The notes beneath the pieces are model-generated. The model ran no database searches. It was not told where the DNA came from and was given only the letters and a program-made list of their open reading frames with translations. From contig NZ_CP026730.1 in NCBI RefSeq assembly GCF_003369795.1, forward strand, positions 930,001-994,000: DNA of 64,000 bases. Direction: 5' to 3'. Positions 1 to 29,186 of this stretch are shown here, piece by piece. The DNA is from Streptomyces sp. CB09001 (GTDB lineage Bacteria > Actinomycetota > Actinomycetes > Streptomycetales > Streptomycetaceae). The position numbers and the translations under genes are program-made. The first letter of the stretch is position 1; every line of letters begins with the position of its first letter.

Positions 1-2436
<2,436 letters not shown>

Positions 2437-2493
2437 GAGGACTCCTCGTGCGCGATCCGGGTCCCCCGGTCAGGCTCCGGATACCCCATGGTA

Positions 2494-2516
2494 GCGATCC
2501 TGCCCTCCAGGATCGC
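2494..2516. repeat. 9-bp inverted repeat in the relA leader
   Basis: GCGATCCTG and its complement CAGGATCGC flank a 5-base CCCTC loop, about 60 bases upstream of the relA start. It could be a hairpin in the relA leader RNA or a dyad protein-binding site. I see no poly-U tract, so it is not an obvious terminator. Its function is unknown. Confidence 0.4.
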
Positions 2517-2553
2517 CTTCTGGCCAATGTGAGGGCTGTCAACCCGTGCAACG

Positions 2554-2592
2554 CCTGGGGCGGGCGCCGGATTCCTCCGGGCCCGCCCCAGG
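2554..2592 (-). terminator. Hairpin downstream of apt
   Basis: A perfect 12-bp GC stem (CCTGGGGCGGGC and its complement) with a 15-base loop lies about 18 bases past the apt stop. It has no T-run, as is usual in Streptomyces. It probably ends the secDF-apt transcript before relA. Confidence 0.6.
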
Positions 2593-2609
2593 GGTGCGGT
2601 TCGCACGGT

Positions 2610-3158
2610 TCAGACCGTGAGCAGTGCCTTCAGCGGTGCCCCGGCCAGGGCGGGCTCCAGACGGGCACGGCCGCCGAGGAAGCCCAGCTCCATCAGGACG
2701 GCGAGGCCCGCGACCTCGGCGCCGGCCCGCCGGATCAGCTCCAGCGAGGCCTCGGCGGTGCCGCCGGTGGCGAGGACGTCGTCGACGACCAGCACGCGGT
2801 CGCCCGCGGTGAGGTCCTCGGCGTGCACCTCGATCTCGGCGGAGCCGTACTCCAGGTCGTAGGCCTGGCTGAGCGTGGCTCCGGGGAGCTTGCCCGCCTT
2901 GCGTACGGGGATGAAGCCGAGGCCCGCCCTCAGGGCCACCGGGGCGCCGAGGATGAAGCCGCGGGCCTCTAGGCCGACGACCTTGGTGGCGCCGGTGTGC
3001 CCGGCGACCTCGGCGAGCGCGTCGGTCAGGGCGGCGAACGCGGCCGGGTCCGCCAGGAGGGGGGTGATGTCCTTGAACACCACGCCCGGCTCCGGGTGGT
3101 CGGCCACGTCACGGATGCGGCTGAGCAGCAGCTCCGTGATGCCGGTCGTCTCGGTCAT
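2610..3158 (-). CDS. apt: Adenine phosphoribosyltransferase
   Basis: This cytoplasmic purine-salvage enzyme converts adenine plus PRPP to AMP and pyrophosphate. The 182-residue length is normal for the family. The type I PRPP-binding motif VLVVDDVLATGGT sits at residues 122-134, and GLEARGFILG near 62-71 is the usual adenine-PRT segment. The ATG at 3158 overlaps the secF stop as ATGA, so translation is probably coupled to secF. The yajC-secD-secF-apt-relA order is conserved in actinobacteria, linking purine salvage to ppGpp metabolism by position only. Confidence 0.95.
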   Translation of the reverse strand: MTETTGITELLLSRIRDVADHPEPGVVFKDITPLLADPAAFAALTDALAEVAGHTGATKVVGLEARGFILGAPVALRAGLGFIPVRKAGKLPGATLSQAYDLEYGSAEIEVHAEDLTAGDRVLVVDDVLATGGTAEASLELIRRAGAEVAGLAVLMELGFLGGRARLEPALAGAPLKALLTV

Positions 3159-4276
3159 CGGCGCTTCCCCGAGGGTCGGCCGCGGCCCCTGCCACGGGAC
3201 GCGGGCTGGTTGCGGGGGCCGACGACCGCGGGTGCGGCGTCGTCCGGCTCGTCGGCGGCGTACGCCTCCTCGTCGGCCGCGGACTCCGGGCTCTCGCCCT
3301 TGGCGGCCGCCTGGGCACGCTTGGCGAGGACCCGCTTCTTGAGGGCCTTCATCTGCGGCTCGGCCTCCTTGAGGTCGGCGACGAGCGGCGTGGCGATGAA
3401 GATCGACGAGTAGGCGCCCGCGGCGAGACCGACGAACAGCGACAGCGAGATGTCGTTGAGCATGCCGGCGCCGAGGACACCGCCGCCGATGAACAGCAGA
3501 CCGCCCACCGGCAGCAGCGCGACCACCGTGGTGTTGATGGAGCGGACCAGGGTGCTGTTGATCGAGCGGTTGGCGATCTCCGCGTAGGTCCAGCGGGTCT
3601 GTTTGGTGATGTCCCGGGTCTGCTCCTTGAGGCTGTCGAAGACGACGACCGTGTCGTAGAGCGAGTAACCGAGGATCGTCAGCAGACCGATCACCGTGCC
3701 TGGGGTGACCTCGAAGCCGACCAGGGCGTAGATGCCCACGGTGATGGTGATGTCGTGGATCAGCGCGACGAAGGCGGCGAGCGCCATCCGCCACTCGAAG
3801 GCGATCGCCAGGTAGATCACCACGAGGACCATGAAGATCCCGAGGCCCTGCCAGGCCTTGTTCGCGATCTGGTCACCCCAGCTGGGGCCGACCAGGTCGG
3901 CGTTGATCTTCTCCGCGGAGACGTCCAGGTTCTTGGAGAGGTCCTCCTTGATCTGGTCCGACTGCTGGGTGTCGGTGCCCGCGATCTGGATGCGGAGGCT
4001 GCCGTCGCCGAGCTTCTGGACGATGGCGTCGTGGCCGGAGGCCTCCTCCGCCCAGGTCTCGGTCTGGGCGACCGAGGCGCTCATGTTCTTCGGGGTGGTG
4101 AAGACCGCGCCGCCCTGGAACTCGATGCCCATGTGCAGGCCGCGCACCGCCAGGCCGACGATGGCCGTGATGGTGATGAGGATCGAGATGCCGTACCAGA
4201 TCTTGCGGTTCTTGACGAAGTCGTAGCCGACCTCGCCGTGGTGCAGTCGGGCGCCGAGTGTGCCGAGCTTCGACAT
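3155..4276 (-). CDS. secF: Protein translocase subunit SecF
   Basis: This membrane protein works with SecD to finish preprotein export by the Sec translocon, using the proton-motive force. It has 373 residues. After a short cytoplasmic start there is a first membrane span (about 31-48), the conserved GIEFQGGAVF motif at the head of the extracytoplasmic domain, then five more predicted spans ending near residue 310. The C-terminal tail is hydrophilic, rich in Ala/Glu then Arg/Gly, and presumably cytoplasmic. The gene starts 3 bases after the secD stop and overlaps apt by 4 bases, so the three genes are one transcript. Confidence 0.96.
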   Translation of the reverse strand: MSKLGTLGARLHHGEVGYDFVKNRKIWYGISILITITAIVGLAVRGLHMGIEFQGGAVFTTPKNMSASVAQTETWAEEASGHDAIVQKLGDGSLRIQIAGTDTQQSDQIKEDLSKNLDVSAEKINADLVGPSWGDQIANKAWQGLGIFMVLVVIYLAIAFEWRMALAAFVALIHDITITVGIYALVGFEVTPGTVIGLLTILGYSLYDTVVVFDSLKEQTRDITKQTRWTYAEIANRSINSTLVRSINTTVVALLPVGGLLFIGGGVLGAGMLNDISLSLFVGLAAGAYSSIFIATPLVADLKEAEPQMKALKKRVLAKRAQAAAKGESPESAADEEAYAADEPDDAAPAVVGPRNQPASRGRGRGRPSGKRR

Positions 4277-4279
4277 CTC

Positions 4280-6097
4280 TCACGCCTCCTTCGGGTCGAC
4301 AGGGCCGGCGGCAGGACGGGACGGACGGCGGGTGCGGCGCAGCGGCGGCTTGGCACCCAGGGCCTTGGGGTCGAGGCCGGACCACTTGTGACCGCTCGCG
4401 AAGAACTTGCGCCGCGCCATCAGCGTCAGCAGCGGCTTGGTGAAGAGGAACACCACCACCACGTCGAGCAGGGTCGTCAGACCGAGCGTGAACGCGAAGC
4501 CCTGCACCTTGCCGACGGTGACGATGAAGAGCACCGCGGCGGCGAGGAAGGACACGAAGTCGGAGACGAGGATGGTGCGCCGGGCGCGCGGCCAGGCCCG
4601 CTCGACGGCGGGACGCAGCGTGCGGCCCTCCCGGATCTCGTCGCGGACGCGTTCGAAGTACACGATGAACGAGTCCGCCGTGATGCCGATGGCGACGATG
4701 GCACCGCACACGGCCGGCAGGTTCAGCGCGAAGCCGATGGTCGGGCCGAGCAGCGCCATGATCACGTACGTGAGGCCGGCCGAGACCAGCAGCGAGCAGA
4801 CGGCGATGAACGACAGCCCGCGGTAGTAGAACAGCAGGTAGAGGACGACCAGGGCGAGACCGATGGCGCCCGCGATCAGACCGGCCTTGAGCTGCTCACC
4901 GCCGAGCGCGGCGGTGACGGTGGTGACGCTGTCCTCCTTGAAGGTCAGCGGCAGCGCGCCGTAGGACAGCATGTTGGCGAGGCTCTGGGCCTCCTCCTGG
5001 TCGAAGCTGCCGGAGATCTCCGCGTTGCCGCCGGTGAGCGCCTGGCTGACGTACGGGTCGGAGACGACCTCGTTGTCCAGGACGATGGCGAACTGGTTCT
5101 GCGGGGACTGGTTCTGCGCCAGCTTGCCGGTGATGTCCGCGAACTTCTTGCTGCCCTTGTCCGTGAACTTCATCGTCACGGTCCAGCCGGCGGCGGTCTG
5201 CGTGTTGTAGACGGCCTCGGCCTCGTCGACCTCGGTGCCGTCGACCGCGGCGGGGCCGAGGATGTACTTCTGCCACTGGCCCTGCGAGTTCTGGCCGCAG
5301 GCCACCGTCGCGTCGCCCGGCTTGGCACCGTCACCGGCCTTGGCGCGGGCGTTCTTGTCGGTGCAGTCCAGGGCCGCGTACTGCTGCTGCAGCTTGGCGG
5401 TGGCGTCGTCGCCGGAGGCGCTGGCGCTCGGGGACGGGGAGGCTCCGTCGGAGCTCGTCGCGGACGGGCTGGGGTCGGCCTTCAGGGCGTCGCTGGCGGC
5501 GCGGCCCTGGGAGGTGGCGCTCGCCGAGGCGGAGTCGGACGGCGTGCCGCCGGCCTTGTCGCCGTCGGTGGCCTTGTCACCGTCGGTGGCCTTGTCACCG
5601 TCGGTGGCCTTGTCGGTCGCCTTGTCGGTCGCCTTGTCCGTGGCGCCGCCGGCCTCGCTCGCCGAGGGGGTGCCGGTCGCGTTGGCGCCGGAGAGTTCGG
5701 TGGCGAGGACCGGGCGGAAGTACAGCTTGGCGGTGGTGCCGACCTGCTGCCGGGCTTCCTTCGAGTTCGTCCCCTTGGGGATGTTGACGATGATGTTCCG
5801 GTCGCCCTGGGTCTGGACCTCGGCCTCGGAAACACCCAGACCATTGACCCGGCGGTTCATGATCTCGACCGCGGTGTCCATGTTGGTCTTGTTGATCGCG
5901 GACTCCTGGCCCGCCTCCGGCACGGCCCGGAGCGTGATGCTCGTACCGCCCGCCAGGTCGATGCCGAGACGCGGAGTCGTGTGCCCGGAGGCGAACATGC
6001 CCCCGGTGAGCGCCACGATGGCGATCAGAATCAGGGCCAGCGAGCGCCCGGGCTTACTCTGAGCGCTCGCATTCTTTCCCTTTTTAGGTGCTACCAC
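4280..6097 (-). CDS. secD: Protein translocase subunit SecD, with a low-complexity repeat insertion
   Basis: SecD is the partner of SecF in late-stage protein export. The start is a GTG at 6097, with GGAG nine bases upstream. It has one N-terminal span (about 21-42), the motif LGIDLAGGTSITL, a large extracytoplasmic domain, and five C-terminal spans (from about residue 400). At 605 residues it is longer than many family members. The excess is a Ser/Ala/Thr/Asp-rich stretch at about residues 138-250 inside the extracytoplasmic P1 region. That stretch contains tandem ATDK and ATDGDK units. Such an insertion should be a flexible, exposed linker, since the flanking conserved sequence reads through intact. 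yajC lies 135 bases upstream. Confidence 0.96.
   Translation of the reverse strand: MVAPKKGKNASAQSKPGRSLALILIAIVALTGGMFASGHTTPRLGIDLAGGTSITLRAVPEAGQESAINKTNMDTAVEIMNRRVNGLGVSEAEVQTQGDRNIIVNIPKGTNSKEARQQVGTTAKLYFRPVLATELSGANATGTPSASEAGGATDKATDKATDKATDGDKATDGDKATDGDKAGGTPSDSASASATSQGRAASDALKADPSPSATSSDGASPSPSASASGDDATAKLQQQYAALDCTDKNARAKAGDGAKPGDATVACGQNSQGQWQKYILGPAAVDGTEVDEAEAVYNTQTAAGWTVTMKFTDKGSKKFADITGKLAQNQSPQNQFAIVLDNEVVSDPYVSQALTGGNAEISGSFDQEEAQSLANMLSYGALPLTFKEDSVTTVTAALGGEQLKAGLIAGAIGLALVVLYLLFYYRGLSFIAVCSLLVSAGLTYVIMALLGPTIGFALNLPAVCGAIVAIGITADSFIVYFERVRDEIREGRTLRPAVERAWPRARRTILVSDFVSFLAAAVLFIVTVGKVQGFAFTLGLTTLLDVVVVFLFTKPLLTLMARRKFFASGHKWSGLDPKALGAKPPLRRTRRPSRPAAGPVDPKEA
5555..5644. 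repeat. In-frame tandem repeats inside secD (3 x 18 bp and 3 x 12 bp)
   Basis: Three 18-bp units (5555-5572, 5573-5590, 5591-5608; the last two identical) encode ATDGDK. Three 12-bp units (5609-5620, 5621-5632, 5633-5644; the first two identical) encode ATDK. All lengths are multiples of three, so copy-number change would keep the frame. The array falls in the extracytoplasmic insertion of SecD. Confidence 0.9.
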
Positions 6098-6232
6098 CTT
6101 TGCGTACTCCCTCTCGGGCCGCTTCGCGCCCAGAAGGCGTCACCGGCGGCCATCACATGGTGTCCGGATCCGTGCGAGCCGCGCGTCACTCGGGGTGCGC
6201 GGGAACCCGTCCCGCGCACCCCGGGGCACGGC

Positions 6233-6742
6233 TTACTTCGCCTCGGAACCGCCGTCGGACTTCTTCGCCTGCTCGTCCGTCTTCGCCTCGGCGGGCGCGG
6301 CGTCGGCCGTCGGCTCGTCGGCCGTCTCGTCGGCGGGCTCGGCCTTCTTGCCGAGGTCGACGGACTTGTCGTCGGAAGCGTCGTCGGCGGGGGCGTCGGT
6401 CTCGGTGAGGGAGGAGGCGTCGTCGGGGACGACGTCCGCGTCGGACTTCAGGTCGTGCTCGATGCCGTGGACGATGCGGTTGTACTCGTCGTCGGTGAGG
6501 ACGGCACCGATGGAGTTCTTGGCGAAGAGCAGCTCGACGCCCGGGCCGGCGTCGAGGAGGACCGTGTCGTCGTTGACCTCCTTGACCGTGGCGTACATGC
6601 CCCCGATGGTGCGGACACCGGTTCCGGGCTGCATCTCGTTCCGCATGTTGGCGGCCTGCTGCTGCTTCTTCTTCGCCGACCGGGTCATCAGGAACATGGC
6701 CCCGATGAGCACGATGAACGGGAGGAGGGTCACGAGACTCAC
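6233..6742 (-). CDS. yajC: Preprotein translocase subunit YajC
   Basis: This small accessory protein of the SecDF-YajC complex has one N-terminal membrane span (about residues 3-20), then a basic stop-transfer stretch (RSAKKKQQQ). A conserved cytoplasmic segment contains VRTIGGMYATVKEV. The start is a GTG at 6742. At 169 residues it is longer than the about 110 of E. coli. The extra part is an acidic Asp/Glu/Ala tail with Lys clusters, common in actinobacterial YajC. It lies upstream of secD in the same direction. Confidence 0.93.
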   Translation of the reverse strand: MSLVTLLPFIVLIGAMFLMTRSAKKKQQQAANMRNEMQPGTGVRTIGGMYATVKEVNDDTVLLDAGPGVELLFAKNSIGAVLTDDEYNRIVHGIEHDLKSDADVVPDDASSLTETDAPADDASDDKSVDLGKKAEPADETADEPTADAAPAEAKTDEQAKKSDGGSEAK

Positions 6743-18099: not shown

Positions 18100-18342
18100 C
18101 GGTGGCAGGGGCTCCGGTGTGCGGTCCGCCGCACCGGGGCCCGCTCCCCCGCACCGGAGGGCCGCCCGCCCCGGCGTGCGACGGCGCGTCCGGCGGTCAA
18201 CCCGCGCGTGCGGGGGCGCCTTTGGTCGTCCCGTGACGGATGACAGTCCTGGCGGATACGCTGATGACCAGATCAACAGGTGTGCGGGGCAGGGAAGTCG
18301 GGAAGGCCGCAGGAGCGACAGTGGTGGCGATCGGGGGCGGGA

Positions 18343-19998
18343 ATGACCGTTGACGGCGGTTACGCGGACTTCTTCGGACCGCAAGTGCCGCGCACGGACG
18401 ACGGCGGCCAGACGGCCACGTTCGCGCTGGCCTCGGCCGCCTACCGGGACAGCGAGGCCGAGGAGATACTCAAGGCCAACAGCGAGTGGCACAAGTCGGC
18501 GGTGAGCAAACCCCGGATCAAGCTCTTCCGGCCCAACCTGGGCGAGGCGTTCTCCCGGGCGATCATCGACCGGATGCTGGGTCCCAAGCGGGCCCCGCTC
18601 ATCCAGTCCTTCGGCACCCAGCCGCAGGTCGTCGTGGAGCACAGCCTCGCGGCGCACCGCATCCGCAGGGACCGGGACAACTGGCTGAGCGCGGTCATGG
18701 TGCTGTGCGGACTGCTGTTCCTGCCCGGACTGCTGATCTGGCTCCTGGTCTTCCAGATCCGCACAACCGTCGCCCGGCGCGAGGACAAGCGGGCCGGCGC
18801 GCTCGCCACCGCCCTGCTGCTCGCGATGGCGGTCCTGGCCGTGCTCTTCCTGCTCAAGATGCCCTTCAGCGGCTTCTGGGCCTGGTACGCACGCGCCTGT
18901 GTCGTCGCCCCGGTGATCGGCTGGTTCTGGGCCAAGCGGATCTGCGAGCGCACCGCACGGGACCTCCGGGAGCGCTGGAGCGGCCTCCTGTCCGGCGCCG
19001 GTGTGGGCGCCAAGGTGCCCGAGGCGGTGCCGAGCAGCCCCGGCGAGACGGCGGCCGAGGAACTGCGGCAGTCACTGGCCCGGCTCAGCGCCGAGCAGCA
19101 GTCCAACTCCGTCTTCTACGCCGGTCCCAAGGGGATCCTCGGCATGGGCACTCGCTGGGGCAACTGGCAGCTCGCCGAGGAGCTGGTCCCCGTCGACCCG
19201 GACCGGGAGATCAACCCGTTCCGCAGCTGGGACGTCATCAGGGCCATCCACGACCGGCTGCGGATGCTGGAGCGCGGCCCGCTGCACACCGGCGGCTTCA
19301 CCAAGCCGACGGTGCGGCACTGGATCGTGACCCCGATCGGTGAGAACGCCGACTCGGTGTCCCGGCCCGAGGGCACGGACGTCGAGGCGTACCAGATCAA
19401 GCAGCACGCCATACAGGAGATCTGCGACAAGCAGCAGTTCGGCGCGGGCGACCGGCACTACCTGGGCGTCCAGTGGACGCTGTGGGACGGCCAGTTGGTC
19501 ATCTCCATGCTGATCACGGTGACGGTGCTGCACGAGACGCTGCGGATCGAGGTCACCGGACATGCCCTGGGACCGGTGCACGCCCTGTTCACCAGCAAGC
19601 CCGCGGCCAAGGAGAAGCAGGTCCAGAAGTCGGTCAAGTTCTGGGAGACCCGCACGGTGAAGCTCCCGCTGGTCGACACCGACGAGGTGGTGCGGCTGGC
19701 CGCACGGGCACCGCTGACCTGGTATCCCCCGCTGCTGTACTGGCTGGGCGGCAAGCTCACGCTGCCCGAGCCCTTCGGGGTGCGGCACGCCTGGGCGGAC
19801 CGGCCGTGGCGGCACCGCTTCATGGCCGACGACGCGCTGCGCGCGGCCACGCCGGTGCTCCGGGCGGTGCACTCGGCCGCGATCAAGGTGCTGAAGGAGA
19901 ACGGCGTGGACACGGAGAAGTTCGGTGCCCGCGCGGGCGGTCTGAGCGGGGCGGTGCAGGAGGCCGTGCCGAAGAAGGCGGACGTCTACGACGCCTAG
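18343..19998 (+). CDS. Membrane protein of unknown function, 551 residues
   Basis: I do not recognise the family. The ATG at 18343 follows a GGGGGCGGGA purine stretch; GTG starts further upstream are possible (18280 gives 572 residues). The N-terminal about 110 residues are hydrophilic. Three membrane spans follow (about 113-138, 151-172 and 180-196). A long soluble C-terminal region of about 350 residues carries no motif I know. The layout suggests a membrane-anchored cytoplasmic domain. It lies 243 bases after the EF-G-like gene and converges on the HIT gene. Confidence 0.8.
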   Translation: MTVDGGYADFFGPQVPRTDDGGQTATFALASAAYRDSEAEEILKANSEWHKSAVSKPRIKLFRPNLGEAFSRAIIDRMLGPKRAPLIQSFGTQPQVVVEHSLAAHRIRRDRDNWLSAVMVLCGLLFLPGLLIWLLVFQIRTTVARREDKRAGALATALLLAMAVLAVLFLLKMPFSGFWAWYARACVVAPVIGWFWAKRICERTARDLRERWSGLLSGAGVGAKVPEAVPSSPGETAAEELRQSLARLSAEQQSNSVFYAGPKGILGMGTRWGNWQLAEELVPVDPDREINPFRSWDVIRAIHDRLRMLERGPLHTGGFTKPTVRHWIVTPIGENADSVSRPEGTDVEAYQIKQHAIQEICDKQQFGAGDRHYLGVQWTLWDGQLVISMLITVTVLHETLRIEVTGHALGPVHALFTSKPAAKEKQVQKSVKFWETRTVKLPLVDTDEVVRLAARAPLTWYPPLLYWLGGKLTLPEPFGVRHAWADRPWRHRFMADDALRAATPVLRAVHSAAIKVLKENGVDTEKFGARAGGLSGAVQEAVPKKADVYDA

Positions 19999-20736: not shown

Positions 20737-22713
20737 TCACACCTGAATCCGGCGCTCCACCACATCGACGAGCTTCGCCAGTGCCTGGTCACGCGGAATG
20801 CCGTTCTCCTGCGAGCCGTCGCGGTAGCGGAACGACACCGTGCCCCCGTGCATGTCCTCGTCGCCGACGATGATCATGAAGGGGACCTTCTGCTTCTGCT
20901 GCGTGCGGATCTTCTTCTGCATCCGGTCCGAGGAGGAGTCCACGTCGACGCGCAAGCCCTTGCGTCGTGCCTCCGCCGCGAACTCCTCCAGGTACTGCAC
21001 GTGCGCGTCCCCCACCGGGATGCCCACCGCCTGCACCGGGGCGAGCCACGGCGGCATCGCGCCCGCGTAGTGCTCCAGGAGCACCGCGAAGAAGCGCTCG
21101 ATGGAGCCGAACAGCGCGCGGTGGATCATGACCGGGCGGGTCTTGGCGCCGTCCGCGGCCGTGTACTCCAGACCGAAGCGCTCCGGCAGGTTGAAGTCGA
21201 GCTGGATGGTCGACATCTGCCAGGTGCGCCCGATGGCGTCCTTGGCCTGGACCGAGATCTTCGGGCCGTAGAACGCGGCGCCGCCCGGGTCCGCCACCAG
21301 CTCCAGGTTCTGCTTCTCGGCAACCTGGCGCAGCGTCTCGGTGGCCTCGTCCCAGGCCTCGTCGGAGCCGACGAACTTCTCCGGGTCCTTGGTGGACAGC
21401 TCCAGGTAGAAGTCGTTCAGGCCGTAGTCGCGCAGCAGGTTCAGGACGAAGGTGAGGGTCTTGTCCAGCTCCTCCGACATCTGCTCGCGGGTGCAGTAGA
21501 TGTGCGCGTCGTCCTGGGTGAAACCGCGGGCCCGGGTCAGGCCGTGCACGACGCCCGACTTCTCGTACCGGTACACGGTGCCGAACTCGAACAGGCGCAG
21601 GGGCAGCTCACGGTAGGAGCGGCCCCGCGCGTCGAAGATCAGGTTGTGCATCGGGCAGTTCATGGGCTTGAGGTAGTAGTCCACGCCCTCGTCGAGCTGC
21701 ATGGGCGGGTACATGCCGTCGGCGTACCAGTCCAGGTGGCCCGAGGTCTCGAAGAGCTTCCCCTTGGTCGCGTGCGGGGTGTAGACGAACTCGTAGCCCT
21801 CCTCCTCGTGGCGGCGGCGCGAGTAGTCCTCCATGACCCGGCGGATGATGCCGCCCTTGGGGTGGAAGACGGCGAGGCCGGAGCCGATCTGCTCCGGGAC
21901 GGAGAACAGGTCCAGCTCGCTGCCCAGCTTGCGGTGGTCGCGCTTCTCGGCCTCGGCGAGGAACTCCAGGTGCGCCTTCAGCTCGTCCTTGGTGGGCCAG
22001 GCGGTGCCGTAGATGCGCTGGAGCATCGGGTTCTTCTCGCTGCCGCGCCAGTAGGCGGCGGCGTTGCGCATCAGCTTGAAGGCCGGGATGTTCCGGGTCG
22101 TGGGCAGGTGGGGACCGCGGCAGAGGTCCTTCCAGCACAGCTCGCCGGTCTTCGCGTCCAGGTTGTCGTAGATCGTCAGCTCGCCGGAGCCGACCTCGAC
22201 GTCCGCGCCGTCGTCGCTGGACGCGGAGCCCTTGAGGCCGATCAGCTCCAGCTTGTACGGCTCGTCGGCGAGCTCCTCGCGGGCGGCCTCGTCGGTGACC
22301 ACGCGGCGGGAGAACCGCTGCCCGCGCTTCTGGATCTCCTGCATCTTCTTCTCGATGGCCTTGAGGTCATCGGGGTGGAAGGGCTTCTCGACGTCGAAGT
22401 CGTAGTAGAAGCCGTCCTTGACGGGCGGGCCGATGCCCAGCTTGGCCTCGGGGAACAGCTCCTGCACGGCCTGGGCCATGACGTGCGCCGTGGAGTGCCG
22501 CAGGATGTTGAGGCCGTCCTCGGAGGTGATCTCGACGGCCTCGACGGTCTCGCCGTCCTTGACCTCGTAGGCGAGGTCCTTGAGGTCGCCGGAGACGCGG
22601 GCGGCGATGATCGAGCGCTCGCCGGCGAAGAGCTCGGCGGCCGTAGTGCCCGTCGTCACCACGCGTTCTTCCCGCTCGGAATCCCGCTGGATGATCACAC
22701 GGACGTCTGACAC
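20737..22713 (-). CDS. thrS: Threonyl-tRNA synthetase
   Basis: It charges tRNA-Thr with threonine. The 658-residue protein has an N-terminal TGS domain (about 1-65), an editing domain ([16 protein letters not shown] with the His-rich site), a class II catalytic core with the zinc-site Cys in NCPMHNLIF, motif 2 around [17 protein letters not shown], motif 3 around [13 protein letters not shown], and a C-terminal anticodon-binding domain. It begins with ATG at 22713. I saw no T-box-like leader in the 92 bases upstream. Confidence 0.97.
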
Positions 22714-22805: not shown

Positions 22806-24098
22806 TCAGTCTCCGCAGGCCCCTCCGTCGCCGCAGGCCGCTCCGTCGCCGCAGGCCTCCTCGAAGAAGGCCGCGACCTCGACGTGCTCCTGGACGGCCT
22901 TCAGCAGCCGGTCCCGCTCGGCGTCGTCGACCTGGACGGGCGCGATCTCGCAGGCGCCGGTGAGCCGGCGGAACCCGCCCCGGCTCTCCAGCCGCCCCAG
23001 CATCCGCACCGGCAGCCCGACGAGGTGGGCGTGCCCGGCGATCCGGTAGGCCTCCTCGTCCAGCGCGACGCGCACGTGCGGCACCTCGGCCCCGGCCAGT
23101 ACCCGCAGCCGTACGGTGCCCGGGCCGCGGGGTCCGGGCCGACGCATACGGACGACGGTGCCGGTGATCCGCACCGGCACGGAGGGCTCCGCGCGCAGGT
23201 AGCGGGCGGCGGCCTCGCGCAGCGCGGGCAGGTCGCCCGGCGAGAACTCGACGGGTTCGGTGAGGGTGCCGCAGCCCTCGGGCGCGCCCGTGGCAGGCGC
23301 CCAGCCGATGGCTATCCGGGCGCCCTCGGTGCCCCGGACCAGGGCGACCAGGGACTCGGTCAGCTCGTGGCTGACCCCGGCCGCGACGGCCGAGTCGAAG
23401 GCCTCCGCACCACCGGTGGCCCGCCGGTAGTCGACGGCCTCGCGGGCGGCGTACAGGGCCTGGTGCAGGCGTACGGCCAGGGGACGGCCGGTGCCGACCG
23501 GCAGGAACGCCGTGAGGTGGCGGCCACCGGGGGCGGGGCCCACCAGGACGTGCTCCAGGGCGGTCTCGGCGGCGCGCCGGTGCCGGGCGCCGTAGTAGCC
23601 GGCACGCGCGCGGGTGGCGAGCGCCCCGGCGAGGAGCATGCGGCGGGCGGCGGAGCGCAGCTGCTCCTCGGTCGTCCAGGTGGCGGTGGAGCCGGGTCCC
23701 GTCGGCATGTCGCGTTCCCAGCGGATCTCGTCGCTGGGGACGGCGAGGGAGAGCAGGATCTCGCGGGCGGCGGGCGTGCCGCTGCGGGACAGGGCGAGCA
23801 GCGCCTCGCCGAGCAGGTCGTCGCTGTCGGGGAAGGCGCGGCTGACGGGCACCAGGAGGCTGGTGACACCCGCGGCCGGGCCCGGCGGGGTCCAGCGGCC
23901 GTAGCGGCCGGCGGCACCGCCGCGCCGTCGCCAGCCGTGCCGGTGGAGCAGGGCGGTCAGCACGGCCGGGTCGACGGTGCCGGGCTCGGGCGGGGTGCCG
24001 TCACGGGGGCGGTCGTCGGGGGCGTCGGCCGGGTGCGGCCGTACGGACCGGAGGGGCTCGACGGGCCGCGGGGGGCCGCCGGTCGGGCGGTGCGTCAT
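22806..24098 (-). CDS. Uncharacterised 430-residue protein paired with a DUF4365 gene
   Basis: I cannot assign a function. The ATG at 24098 overlaps the upstream gene's stop as ATGA, so the two are coupled. The N-terminus is Pro/Arg-rich. A conserved-looking part begins HRHGWRRR...[10 protein letters not shown] near residue 53. A C-terminal beta-rich stretch (about 295-390, containing [12 protein letters not shown]...[10 protein letters not shown] and [14 protein letters not shown]) looks OB-fold-like. The last 20 residues carry three Cys in ACGDG-type repeats. Actinobacterial proteins of this sort often neighbour nuclease-like genes (recollection). It could be a sensor or binding partner of the downstream nuclease candidate. 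Confidence 0.75.
22809..22862. repeat. Three 18-bp repeats at the 3' end of the 430-residue gene
   Basis: Units at 22809-22826, 22827-22844 and 22845-22862 share CCGCAGGCC and encode ACGD(G) three times just before the stop. Each unit contributes one Cys and one Asp, giving three Cys spaced six to seven residues apart at the C-terminus. Confidence 0.8.
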
Positions 24099-24661
24099 GG
24101 TTTCCCTCCCGTCCCGACCCGCGTCATGATCTCGCACAGCGCCCGGTCGTCGAAGATCCGCGCGGTCGGCATCCGCACGGTGGTGCGCCGCCGGCCCGTG
24201 ACGGGGTGTCCGGCGAGGTTCGTCCAGTAGCAGCAGTGTCTGAGGTCGAGCCGGTCGTGTCCGGCGCGCAGCCACTGGTCCCGGGACCGGGGGACGATCA
24301 TCACGACAAGGATCTTGTGCACCGAGACCGGGGTGCGGGCGAGCTTGGTCAGGTGGTCGTTGTCGAGGGTGAAGGAGAAGGACCGGCCGGGCGGCCCGGG
24401 CGCGATCTGGTAGGTCGCCTTGAGCTGCACCTTGATGGTGACCTCGTCGTCGACGGTGTGCCCCGGGGCGCTGTGGCTGACATGCCAGTCGATGCCGTTG
24501 TCCGGGAGGGGCTGGGAGAGCGAGCAGCCCGCCGCGGCGGCGACCGCGTGGAGGTAGCCGACCTGCAGGGTCTCCATGCAGGCGGTGGTGGCGAGGGAGC
24601 CGCGTGAGGGCGTGGTGCGCTCCGGCAGCAGCCCGCCCCGTTCGGGCTGCGCAATGGCCAT
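24095..24661 (-). CDS. DUF4365-type PD-(D/E)xK nuclease-like protein
   Basis: This 188-residue protein resembles DUF4365, a PD-(D/E)xK nuclease-like family. Visible candidate catalytic residues are Glu30, Asp58 in NGIDWHV, and Gln79/Lys81 in IKVQLKAT, the D...QxK pattern of that fold. The ATG at 24661 has GGAAGG nine bases upstream; an upstream open frame is not needed. It is coupled to the 430-residue gene and divergent from a DnaQ-like exonuclease gene, with 171 bases between them. DUF4365 domains occur in some defence-linked nucleases, but the sequence alone does not prove that role. Confidence 0.75.
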   Translation of the reverse strand: MAIAQPERGGLLPERTTPSRGSLATTACMETLQVGYLHAVAAAAGCSLSQPLPDNGIDWHVSHSAPGHTVDDEVTIKVQLKATYQIAPGPPGRSFSFTLDNDHLTKLARTPVSVHKILVVMIVPRSRDQWLRAGHDRLDLRHCCYWTNLAGHPVTGRRRTTVRMPTARIFDDRALCEIMTRVGTGGKP

Positions 24662-24832
24662 GACCAACAGCCTTCCAGAACTGGTGAATCCCCGTTGCGG
24701 GTCTGTGAACTGCAAAGACCCGTACTCCTGTTGTGTCCTTCCGGCGTACGTCGCAAACAGCCCGGGTATCACCGAACCCGGACAAGGGACGGCGCGTCAG
24801 CTGCCGCGCTCGGACGAGGAGTTGAGTGCCCT

Positions 24833-25558
24833 ATGACGAGCTGGTTCGAGGGGCCGTTGGCCGCCTTCGACACGGAGACGACGGGTGTGGACACCGAGAC
24901 CGACCGGATCGTGTCGGCCGCCCTCGTCGTCCAGGACGCGCCGGGACTGCGCCCGCGGGTGACCCGGTGGCTGGTGAACCCGGGCGTGCCGGTGCCCGAG
25001 TCGGCGACGGCGGTGCACGGGCTGACGCAGGAGTACGTGCAGCGTCACGGGCGGTGGCCGGCGCCGGTGATGTACGAGATGGCGGAGGCACTGACCGAGC
25101 AGGCCCGCGCCGGGCGCCCGCTGGTGGTGATGAACGCGCCGTTCGACCTCACGCTGCTGGACCGGGAGTTGCGCAGGCATCGCGCCTCGTCGCTGGGCCG
25201 CTGGCTGGAGCGGACGTCGCTGCACGTGCTGGACCCGCACGTGCTGGACAAGCACCTGGACCGCTACCGCAAGGGCCGTCGTACGCTCACCGACCTGTGC
25301 GCGCACTACGGCGTGGAGTTGGCGGGCGCGCACGACGCGGCGGCCGACGCCCTGGCGGCGCTGGAGGTCGTACGGGCGGTGGGGCGCCGCTTCCAGTCGC
25401 GCCTCGAGCGCCTCTCCCCCGCCGAGCTGCACACCCTTCAGGCGGTGTGGCACGCCGGGCAGGCGCGCGGACTGCAGGCGTGGTTCGCGCTCAACGGCAC
25501 CGAGGAGGCGGTGGACCCGGCCTGGCCCCTGCGCCCGGATCTGTCGGCGGCGGCGTGA
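24833..25558 (+). CDS. DnaQ-like 3'-5' exonuclease (DEDDh family)
   Basis: This 241-residue protein has the DEDDh exonuclease motifs: Exo I in AAFDTETTGVDTETDRI (residues about 10-26), Exo II around VMNAPFDLTLL, and Exo III in GAHDAAADALAAL with the His and Asp. It lacks polymerase-subunit features, so it is a stand-alone exonuclease rather than the replicative epsilon. The ATG at 24833 follows GAGGAG. It is divergent from the DUF4365 gene and convergent with tRNA-Val(CAC). Confidence 0.9.
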   Translation: MTSWFEGPLAAFDTETTGVDTETDRIVSAALVVQDAPGLRPRVTRWLVNPGVPVPESATAVHGLTQEYVQRHGRWPAPVMYEMAEALTEQARAGRPLVVMNAPFDLTLLDRELRRHRASSLGRWLERTSLHVLDPHVLDKHLDRYRKGRRTLTDLCAHYGVELAGAHDAAADALAALEVVRAVGRRFQSRLERLSPAELHTLQAVWHAGQARGLQAWFALNGTEEAVDPAWPLRPDLSAAA

Positions 25559-26296: not shown

Positions 26297-29035
26297 CTAC
26301 GGCATCCTGTCCCCCAGGAGTGCGAGGTTCTCGATGGCGGCCAGGCCGTAGAGCGCGGTGTCGTTGGTGGACACCCAGCTCGCCTCGGCGCCCGGGACGA
26401 GGGTGAGGGGGCCGCTCAGTTTCTGCGTCGTCCAGGGCGCCGACTCCTTGTAGCCGTCGGAGTCGTAGAACTTCTGCCACGCGCGCGTGGCGAGCTTGTC
26501 GTCGCCGGTCCGTACGGCCGCGTAGGCGTCGAGGCGGGAGTGGCCCTGGAAGAGGATGAGGCTGCCGAAGTTGGCGCCGTAGCGTTCGGCCTGTTCGGAC
26601 TTGTTCGCGTTGAAGTAGCGGCAGTAGTCGTAGTACGCCTCCTCGAACTTCGGCAGGTCGACGAGGTCGATCAGTTCGGCGCACAGTTCGTTCAGGCCGA
26701 AGACGGCGGACAGGTGGGAGACCTCGACCTTCGGGGTGTCGGCGACGGCGAACTTCCCGGTGTCCAGGTCGTAGAGGCCGCTGCCCTGGACGAAGCCGTT
26801 GGGCTGGGCGGCGATGGTCTCCATGGTGGACAGGACGCGGTCCCTGGCCTTCTCCCACTTGGGGCCCTTGCGTTCCCACTCGGTGAGCCAGGCCGAGACC
26901 AGGCCGCTCCAGTCGGTGCCGAAACCGACCGACAGGGCGTTGCGGTCGGGGGTGTAGGGCTCGGTGCGGATCTTGCGGAGCGGGTCGAGGGCGAGGAAGG
27001 TCTCGTCGGAGTCGACGTTGGCGTGCATGAGGTCGCCGACGCGTTCGTCGGCGGTGAGGAAGTAGTAGAAGCGCCGGTAGGTGGTGTTGGCGATGCGCTG
27101 CTGCTTGGCGCTGTCGGCGTAGTGCTGGACGCCGTGCCGGGTGCCGAGCCCGGCCCATTGGCCCAGGTGATAGACGTCCACCTCGCCGGTGTGCCGGGTC
27201 ATGGCCTCGGCGAAGCGGAAGATGTCGGCGCGGCCGGAGCGCAGGTAGGCGTACCAGAGCCAGAGGTCCGGGGAGAGTTCGGAGTTGCCCCAGGCGTAGC
27301 CGCCGATGTCGTACCGCCAGGTGTGCCGGCTGGCGTCGTAGGTGTGCATGATGTCGCCGTAGTCCCAGAAGCCGTACCAACGGCGCTGCTCCACCTGGTC
27401 CTTGTAGTAGGTGAAGAGGAAGTCGAGGTGGTCCTCGATCCTGGCCTTGGCGGGAGTGGAGCGGTCGGGCTCGGAGTAGAGGCCCGGGCCGAAGACCCCG
27501 GCCTTGATGAGCTGCTTGGGCGGGGCGGCCAGTTGCGGGAGTACGCGCACCGCCTGGACCTGTTCGGCGAGTTGCCCGGCGCTCGGGGTGGCGGCGTTGG
27601 CCCAGAAGAGGAGTTCCGAGGTGCGGGCGATGCCGTAGGGGGTGCCGAACTCCGGCTCGTAGTCCTCGTAGGTGATGTTGAGGCCTTCGAGCTGCTCGGG
27701 GAACGTGTCCTGGCCCATGCCGTCGTGGTAGAAGCGCAGGTCCATGGGCTGGGCCTCGGGTGACCAGAGCCAGAGGGTGACCTCGGCCTCGTCGGTCTGG
27801 GCGTCCCGGATGTCGAGCTGGGCGGGGTGTTTCTCCCAGAAGTCCCGCAGGCCGAAGGAGAGGCCGCCGCTCACGCCGCCGACGTAGCCGAAGCCGGAGG
27901 CGCGCCGGCCGCCGCCCGCGCCGATCCAGCCGTGGCCCTTCTTGGTGCGCTTGCGCAGGGTGAAGCCGTCGGCGGACAGCTGGGCGAGGGTGTAGTCGCC
28001 CCATTCGGGGATGTACTTCAGGCGGGTGGTGACCCGCTGGTCCCAGGTGGCGGGGTCGGGCAGCTTCTCGCCGGCGAACTGCGCCGCCTGGACGGCGGCC
28101 CCCGGGTCGCGGCGCAGGCCGGTGATGCCCTTGACGGCCTCGCGGAGCAGGCCGGTGCCCTCACCGCCGATGCGGATGTGGCGGTCGTAGGCCTCGTCGC
28201 GCATCGGGACGGTGAAGCGGACGCCGAGGCCGCGGATGAAGTCGCCGCTCGCCTTTCCGGGCTCCTGCTTCCCGTCGAACGTGATGGTGTGCACCATGCG
28301 GAAGGAGTCGGCTCCCGCGTAGAAGTAGAGGCGGATGGAGAAGGGGAGCCAACCGCGGTGGCCCTTGCGGTGCTTGCCGTCGATGCGGACGACGGCTCGG
28401 ACCGGGCCCTCCTGTTCGACCTTCACCTCGTCGATCGCGCCGTCGAAGCGCTCGTACTTCACGGTGCCCTGGTCGCCGTCCTCGATCTCGGGCTGGCGCA
28501 GCAGGACGAGGCGGCCGTTCTTGGCGATCTCGGTGGAGCCCCGGGTGACCGACTTGATCAGGGCCGATCCGGTCGTGCCGATTCTGGCGGTGACGACGCC
28601 GGTCGATATGTCGATGGTGCCGCCGTGCCGCGTGACGGTGACCTTCTTGGCGGGGGCGGCCGGGGTTCCGGCCGCGAGGGTGAGCTTGCCGTTGCCCGAA
28701 CCGACGGCGTGGGCCGTCCACTTGAGGGAGCCGTCGGGCCAGTGGGCGAGCGGCCAGGACTGTACGGGTACGGCCTTGCCGTCCGCGTCCGTGACGGCGA
28801 ACGGCTGGTCCTCCCGGAAGGTGCCCCTGGGCCAGGGGACGCCGACGGTGGAGCCGGGGGCGGCGCCGAGGCCGCCGTCCTCCAGCCAGGTCAGGGTGAC
28901 GGGGCCGTCGTCGGCGGCCGGGGCGGCGGCGGGCGCGGCCTGTGCGTTCTTCGTGCCCAGTGCCCAGCTGAACTGGGCGGCGGCACCGGCGACGGCGGCC
29001 GCCTTGAGGAGGGACCTGCGGGGAATCGGGGACAT
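26297..29035 (-). CDS. Tat-exported PcRGLX/YetA-like (exo-rhamnogalacturonan-lyase-like) protein
   Basis: This 912-residue secreted protein starts at an ATG at 29035. A Tat signal (RRSLLK at 6-11, hydrophobic stretch, AQAA near 31-34) precedes a mature part. Its opening VTLTWLEDGGLGAAPGSTVG and PLAHWPDGSLKWTAHAVG match the N-terminal domain of YetA/PcRGLX proteins as I remember them. An alpha/alpha-barrel-like central region has many Trp/Tyr. I infer action on plant or microbial polysaccharide, probably rhamnogalacturonan, outside the cell. The linked ABC importer and YesL-like gene support this. Substrate assignment is by family only. Confidence 0.72.
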   Translation of the reverse strand: MSPIPRRSLLKAAAVAGAAAQFSWALGTKNAQAAPAAAPAADDGPVTLTWLEDGGLGAAPGSTVGVPWPRGTFREDQPFAVTDADGKAVPVQSWPLAHWPDGSLKWTAHAVGSGNGKLTLAAGTPAAPAKKVTVTRHGGTIDISTGVVTARIGTTGSALIKSVTRGSTEIAKNGRLVLLRQPEIEDGDQGTVKYERFDGAIDEVKVEQEGPVRAVVRIDGKHRKGHRGWLPFSIRLYFYAGADSFRMVHTITFDGKQEPGKASGDFIRGLGVRFTVPMRDEAYDRHIRIGGEGTGLLREAVKGITGLRRDPGAAVQAAQFAGEKLPDPATWDQRVTTRLKYIPEWGDYTLAQLSADGFTLRKRTKKGHGWIGAGGGRRASGFGYVGGVSGGLSFGLRDFWEKHPAQLDIRDAQTDEAEVTLWLWSPEAQPMDLRFYHDGMGQDTFPEQLEGLNITYEDYEPEFGTPYGIARTSELLFWANAATPSAGQLAEQVQAVRVLPQLAAPPKQLIKAGVFGPGLYSEPDRSTPAKARIEDHLDFLFTYYKDQVEQRRWYGFWDYGDIMHTYDASRHTWRYDIGGYAWGNSELSPDLWLWYAYLRSGRADIFRFAEAMTRHTGEVDVYHLGQWAGLGTRHGVQHYADSAKQQRIANTTYRRFYYFLTADERVGDLMHANVDSDETFLALDPLRKIRTEPYTPDRNALSVGFGTDWSGLVSAWLTEWERKGPKWEKARDRVLSTMETIAAQPNGFVQGSGLYDLDTGKFAVADTPKVEVSHLSAVFGLNELCAELIDLVDLPKFEEAYYDYCRYFNANKSEQAERYGANFGSLILFQGHSRLDAYAAVRTGDDKLATRAWQKFYDSDGYKESAPWTTQKLSGPLTLVPGAEASWVSTNDTALYGLAAIENLALLGDRMP

Positions 29036-29186
29036 GGCCTTTCCTTTCCGTGCGGGGATGGCAGGGGTGTCAAAGGCATGAGGGGTGTCAAGGGCATGAC
29101 AGATAGAGGTACGGCTTGGAGACACCGACCTCGGTACGCAGGGGGGCCGCCGCGGCACGGGGCCACCCCGGGGCGAAGGCGCCGGG

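Follow-up and report, generated by a model that had tools for sequence, protein, structure and literature searches.

Within the 64,000-nucleotide stretch of Streptomyces sp. CB09001 DNA analysed here (the window), two overlapping genes on the minus strand, hereafter A and B, face an exonuclease gene across a shared intergenic region. The features, in window coordinates, are as follows:

22806-24098, minus strand: gene B (PDC-M02B), 430 aa, with an ATGA overlap with gene A
22929-23189, minus strand: predicted OB fold of gene B, residues 304-390, in a model of low confidence overall and better in this part
24095-24661, minus strand: gene A (PDC-M02A), 188 aa, predicted DUF4365 / DREN-type PD-(D/E)xK nuclease
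24419-24421, minus strand: codon of the predicted catalytic residue K81 of gene A
24425-24427, minus strand: codon of the predicted catalytic residue Q79 of gene A
24488-24490, minus strand: codon of the predicted catalytic residue D58 of gene A
24662-24832, no strand: shared divergent intergenic region, 171 bp, conserved across the genus
24833-25558, plus strand: DEDDh exonuclease (PRK07942 family), 241 aa, a neighbour outside the pair

The stop codon of gene A and the start codon of gene B have the four bases ATGA in common, and the DEDDh exonuclease gene is read in the opposite direction across the 171 bp. Both points had been described correctly in an earlier note on this DNA. Farther out, positions 18280-19998 encode a conserved membrane protein of ~550 aa that lies in fixed synteny beside HIT and thrS and gave no Pfam match over the cut-off, and positions 26300-29041 probably encode a Tat-secreted PcRGLX-like (rhamnogalacturonan lyase-type) protein.

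The product of gene A matches Pfam DUF4365 (PF14280; E 1.4e-20). Its structure was modelled with AlphaFold2 from a shallow alignment (pLDDT 70, pTM 0.68), and the best Foldseek match of this model was SPARDA 9qcc (E 6.7e-6). Comparison of the model with the SPARDA chain gave a VIA Z of 13.6 over 145 residues (rmsd 3.8), residues 3-151 of gene A being the part aligned to the DREN nuclease domain. The fold matches that followed were archaeal Hjc resolvases (Z 9-11.5), I-Ssp6803I (Z 9.1) and RecU (Z 7.8). D58, Q79 and K81 do not vary among 21 orthologues, nor among 11 very distant relatives, which come from actinobacteria, plasmids of alphaproteobacteria, a mycobacterial prophage and a Leptospira phage. 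By motif (D...QxK), these residues correspond to D41, Q60 and K62, the catalytic residues of SPARDA DREN (PMC12205087); the counterpart residues of TmuRE are Q62/K64 (PMC10810196). The Pfam match, the structural match and the three invariant residues support the earlier proposal that the DUF4365 protein is a PD-(D/E)xK-like nuclease. Gene A probably has a DREN-like PD-(D/E)xK fold, together with the catalytic D plus (Q/E)xK of that superfamily, and its product is predicted to cut DNA. The proposed residue set needs one correction: D58, Q79 and K81 are retained in distant relatives, but the invariance of E30 is limited to close orthologues.

Gene B gave no match in Pfam or NCBIfam. The model of its product had a mean pLDDT of 53 and was poor outside the OB fold; there is no usable model for the rest of the protein, and only the C-terminal part can be read. 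Residues 304-390, modelled with moderate confidence, are predicted to adopt the five-stranded OB topology b-b-b-a-b-b, in agreement with the OB-fold-like part noticed earlier. This part matches many OB proteins at Z 8-10, with SilF at Z 10.1 and RecG, RecO, PriB, SSB and RPA at about Z 8. An OB fold alone is no proof of nucleic-acid sensing. The three-Cys tail that had also been pointed out exists in this genome but is absent from all 14 aligned orthologues, in which mostly the first Cys alone recurs; since the tail is not conserved, we ruled it out as a metal site. We also rejected gene B as an APAZ protein: no similarity was found, and hhalign against the source genome's own DUF4365-APAZ remnant returned a probability of 0.1%.

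Although the earlier note could not match these genes to a named system, PADLOC lists a candidate, PDC-M02, whose profiles fit both proteins. Residues 1-188 of gene A align with 1-184 of the 184 positions of PDC-M02A (E 1.7e-91), and residues 29-417 of gene B align with 7-394 of the 396 positions of PDC-M02B (E 1.2e-178); the two genes are adjacent, with the ATGA overlap. The pair is therefore not a new system, being already catalogued in PADLOC. The name marks a catalogued candidate defence pair, and its role in phage defence is only a candidate one; a literature search found no paper naming PDC-M02. Among the ten neighbouring ORFs, PADLOC gave no match beyond one weak generic HIT-domain match.

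To describe the inheritance of the locus, we use 200 genomes of the bacterial family. Gene A was found in 120 and gene B in 126 (these 120 plus six with remnants); gene A was absent from 80. None of the 120 A-bearing genomes lacked gene B, a count over related genomes and not over independent events, and B or pieces of B occurred without A in six of the 200 and at a further locus (L034), where A was lost and B kept. The fetched loci have the order HIT-thrS-B-A / exonuclease throughout. At empty sites thrS lies beside the exonuclease gene (L035, L036, L066-L068, L071, L072, L075-L078). Decayed pieces of the pair were seen at L070 and L037, and an N-truncated B with neither A nor the exonuclease at L073 and L074. 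In two A-bearing loci (L082, L083) B is split into two frames, which may reflect sequencing errors or real damage. A break of gene A at L080 was only apparent; it is an assembly gap of N and was not counted as a break.

A tree of exonuclease plus HIT requires at least seven changes in the presence of A, and well-supported branches make three of these unavoidable. In the tree of A plus B, each of the six genera with more than one sample forms a clade, and the main deep division agrees with that in the exonuclease plus HIT tree. This agrees with the earlier view of a core-genome setting without recent gain. Among three close genomes, dN/dS was 0.13-0.17 for A, 0.24-0.28 for B, 0.11-0.15 for the exonuclease and 0.06-0.12 for HIT, the values of A lying close to those of the exonuclease. 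The source locus is thus an old, vertically inherited core locus that is under purifying selection and yet dispensable, with repeated deletions. One copy of the pair would have settled between thrS and the DnaQ-type exonuclease gene early in Streptomycetaceae and descended vertically since. The thrS gene itself (20737-22713) is mosaic. Its tree, in which some Streptomyces thrS group with other genera, conflicts with those of exonuclease plus HIT and of A plus B, which makes thrS ill suited as a species marker here; the conflict suggests replacement or gene conversion.

Distant copies of the pair lie in other settings. In Streptomyces such copies adjoin DISARM DrmA (L050), Orf5 and DrmD (L051) or a type II methyl-directed REase (L047). 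A further copy (L065) lies in an integrative-type element with a RepSA-like replication-initiator-like gene and an integrase, both named by eye from the sequence. Copies are also found on Phaeobacter and Gluconobacter plasmids. In the M. abscessus prophage prophi102-2 (L109:398-2160) the pair makes up genes 1-2, both annotated as hypothetical, and offers a possible phage-borne test case; in Leptospira phage LE1 the relatives are gp38-gp37. The overlapping A-then-B order is maintained from Streptomyces through the alphaproteobacterial plasmids and the mycobacterial prophage. The phage relatives were reached with a distant gene A as query; scans of viral contigs with five query sequences, and searches of phage and plasmid records with gene B itself, found no relative. 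The genome-contig scan gave two loci only, and the breadth outside actinobacteria is therefore to be read as examples, not counts. Given relatives on plasmids and phages, beside DISARM and in an integrative element, the family resembles mobile defence in its behaviour, and the source copy is its settled branch.

We consider the chances about even that A and B form a PDC-M02 module in which a latent nuclease is gated by its OB-fold partner and which acts in anti-phage or genome defence. Gene B would recognise a nucleic-acid structure that arises in phage infection or replication trouble, and its OB fold suggests single-stranded nucleic acid as the signal. It would hold gene A silent until the signal appears and would then release or assemble it for DNA cutting; as a result, the invader would be cleared, or the infected cell would die or arrest. 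The putative gating is modelled on SPARDA, in which DREN on its own is inactive and activity needs assembly (PMC12205087). The lack of any A-bearing genome without B is in keeping with an effector that is dangerous on its own, although the genomes are related and the numbers not independent. Against a defence role, such systems seldom exist as a lone core copy that is passed on vertically, away from any defence island. A more specific version, which we put forward tentatively, is that the pair is a guide-free relative of SPARDA, with DREN switched on by an OB-fold sensor of single-stranded nucleic acid instead of Argonaute, and that it has become a domesticated core genome-defence locus in Streptomycetaceae.

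Vertical inheritance and strong purifying selection would also suit a domesticated housekeeping pair that serves DNA repair or recombination in Streptomycetaceae, with A as a structure-selective, Holliday-junction-resolvase-like nuclease and B as its SSB/RecO/RecG-like OB-fold loader. After SPARDA, the folds closest to that of A are those of Hjc, I-Ssp6803I and RecU, and the OB matches of B include RecG, RecO, PriB and SSB. However, the pair is missing from the 80 family genomes mentioned above, with clean deletions in several lineages; relatives of the module reside on phages, on plasmids and in defence islands; and the closest fold match of A is a defence effector. On this balance we regard a housekeeping role as rather unlikely. 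The asymmetry between the two genes (A never alone; B or its pieces sometimes so) and their overlap could also be those of a toxin–antitoxin-like pair, in which nuclease toxin A is neutralised by B, the pair persists chiefly through the harm done by losing B, and defence is secondary or absent. Typical antitoxins are small, whereas B is a 430-aa OB-fold protein and the effector gene comes first; moreover, A and B have often been lost together and cleanly, so addiction would be weak at best. We judge this explanation improbable.

The exonuclease gene has an RNase_T match and belongs to NCBIfam PRK07942 (E 2.3e-91); a paralogue with 43% identity lies elsewhere in the source genome. The shared intergenic region contains two further elements:

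24729-24734, no strand: TGTTGT motif, starting 15 bp upstream of the SigB-type site
24744-24769, plus strand: SigB-family-type promoter-like site GCGTAC-N14-GGGTAT, 89-64 bp before the exonuclease start

Streptomyces SigB-family promoters have GNNT at -35 and GGG with A at position five at -10 (PMC8346170), and the GCGTAC-N14-GGGTAT site fits this pattern as a putative promoter. It is conserved through the genus, with a similar form in other genera, and the exonuclease could be part of a stress regulon. Within the genus, most loci that lack the pair still have the site. TGTTGT was found in 23 of 24 pair-bearing regions, is absent from pair-less ones and is kept at L034, where B is present; it may form part of a promoter or operator that serves the pair. 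Since the SigB-type site outlasts the pair and TGTTGT goes with it, each direction seems to be served by signals of its own.

At E<=1e-60 the exonuclease is present in 166 of the 200 family genomes, about 47 of which are without the pair (a figure derived by comparing presence sets across the 200 genomes by hand), and in 119 of the 120 pair-bearing genomes, the exception being G460. At L081 the pair is kept and the exonuclease lost, and none of the copies on plasmids, in the prophage, in Leptospira phage LE1, in the integrative element or in defence islands is accompanied by an exonuclease of this kind. We dropped the exonuclease as a third member: where the pair is missing it still occupies its usual position, it has its own promoter-like site, and it is an independent gene. 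That all three genes form one nucleic-acid-processing system, as the earlier note proposed with constant co-occurrence as its check, is very improbable and as an obligate trio largely refuted by the pair-less exonuclease genomes, by empty sites that retain the exonuclease and, in the genus, mostly its promoter-like site, and by the pairs without it, even though the genes are adjacent in 30/30 genus loci checked, the divergent promoter region is conserved and inter-gene distances correlate (r 0.80-0.90), correlations that stem from shared vertical descent.

The interest of the locus lies in its being a core-genome branch of the PDC-M02 candidate, now with a precise mechanistic hypothesis. The link between PDC-M02A and the solved SPARDA nuclease gives the exact catalytic residues for mutation. 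The function is directly testable, given a core copy in a genus that has been well studied, natural empty sites and an A-less B strain. The locus also shows a defence-type module retained as core genome and not as a mobile gene.

Among known systems, the 24833-25558 gene is a normal member of the PRK07942 DnaQ-type exonucleases. Archaeal Hjc and RecU resolvases and I-Ssp6803I have the PD-(D/E)xK core fold in common with gene A (Z 7.8-11.5), but their match is weaker than that of SPARDA and no sequence similarity to them was found. The source genome itself contains a decayed SPARDA system at C1:5675000-5685500 (L053), with the following features in locus coordinates:

1777-3504, 3486-4946 and 6109-6603, minus strand: decayed SPARDA genes
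4641-5408, plus strand: transposase

There, an insertion splits the DUF4365-APAZ gene and a second transposase truncates the short Argonaute. PADLOC matches are pAgo (6.7e-146) and Aga_REase (2.3e-112 and 3.2e-23), and the locus contains the other two DUF4365 matches of the source genome. With SPARDA, gene A shares the DUF4365/DREN nuclease domain, the predicted fold and the D...QxK pattern. Unlike SPARDA, the A/B pair is without APAZ, gene A being a stand-alone nuclease with an OB-fold partner, and has no adjoining short pAgo, its neighbours being thrS, HIT and the exonuclease; no Argonaute-type PADLOC match was obtained for A, B or the ten neighbouring ORFs. With PDC-M02, the source-genome pair shares both near-full-length profiles, adjacency and gene order; it differs in being a vertically inherited core locus, as opposed to an accessory island gene.
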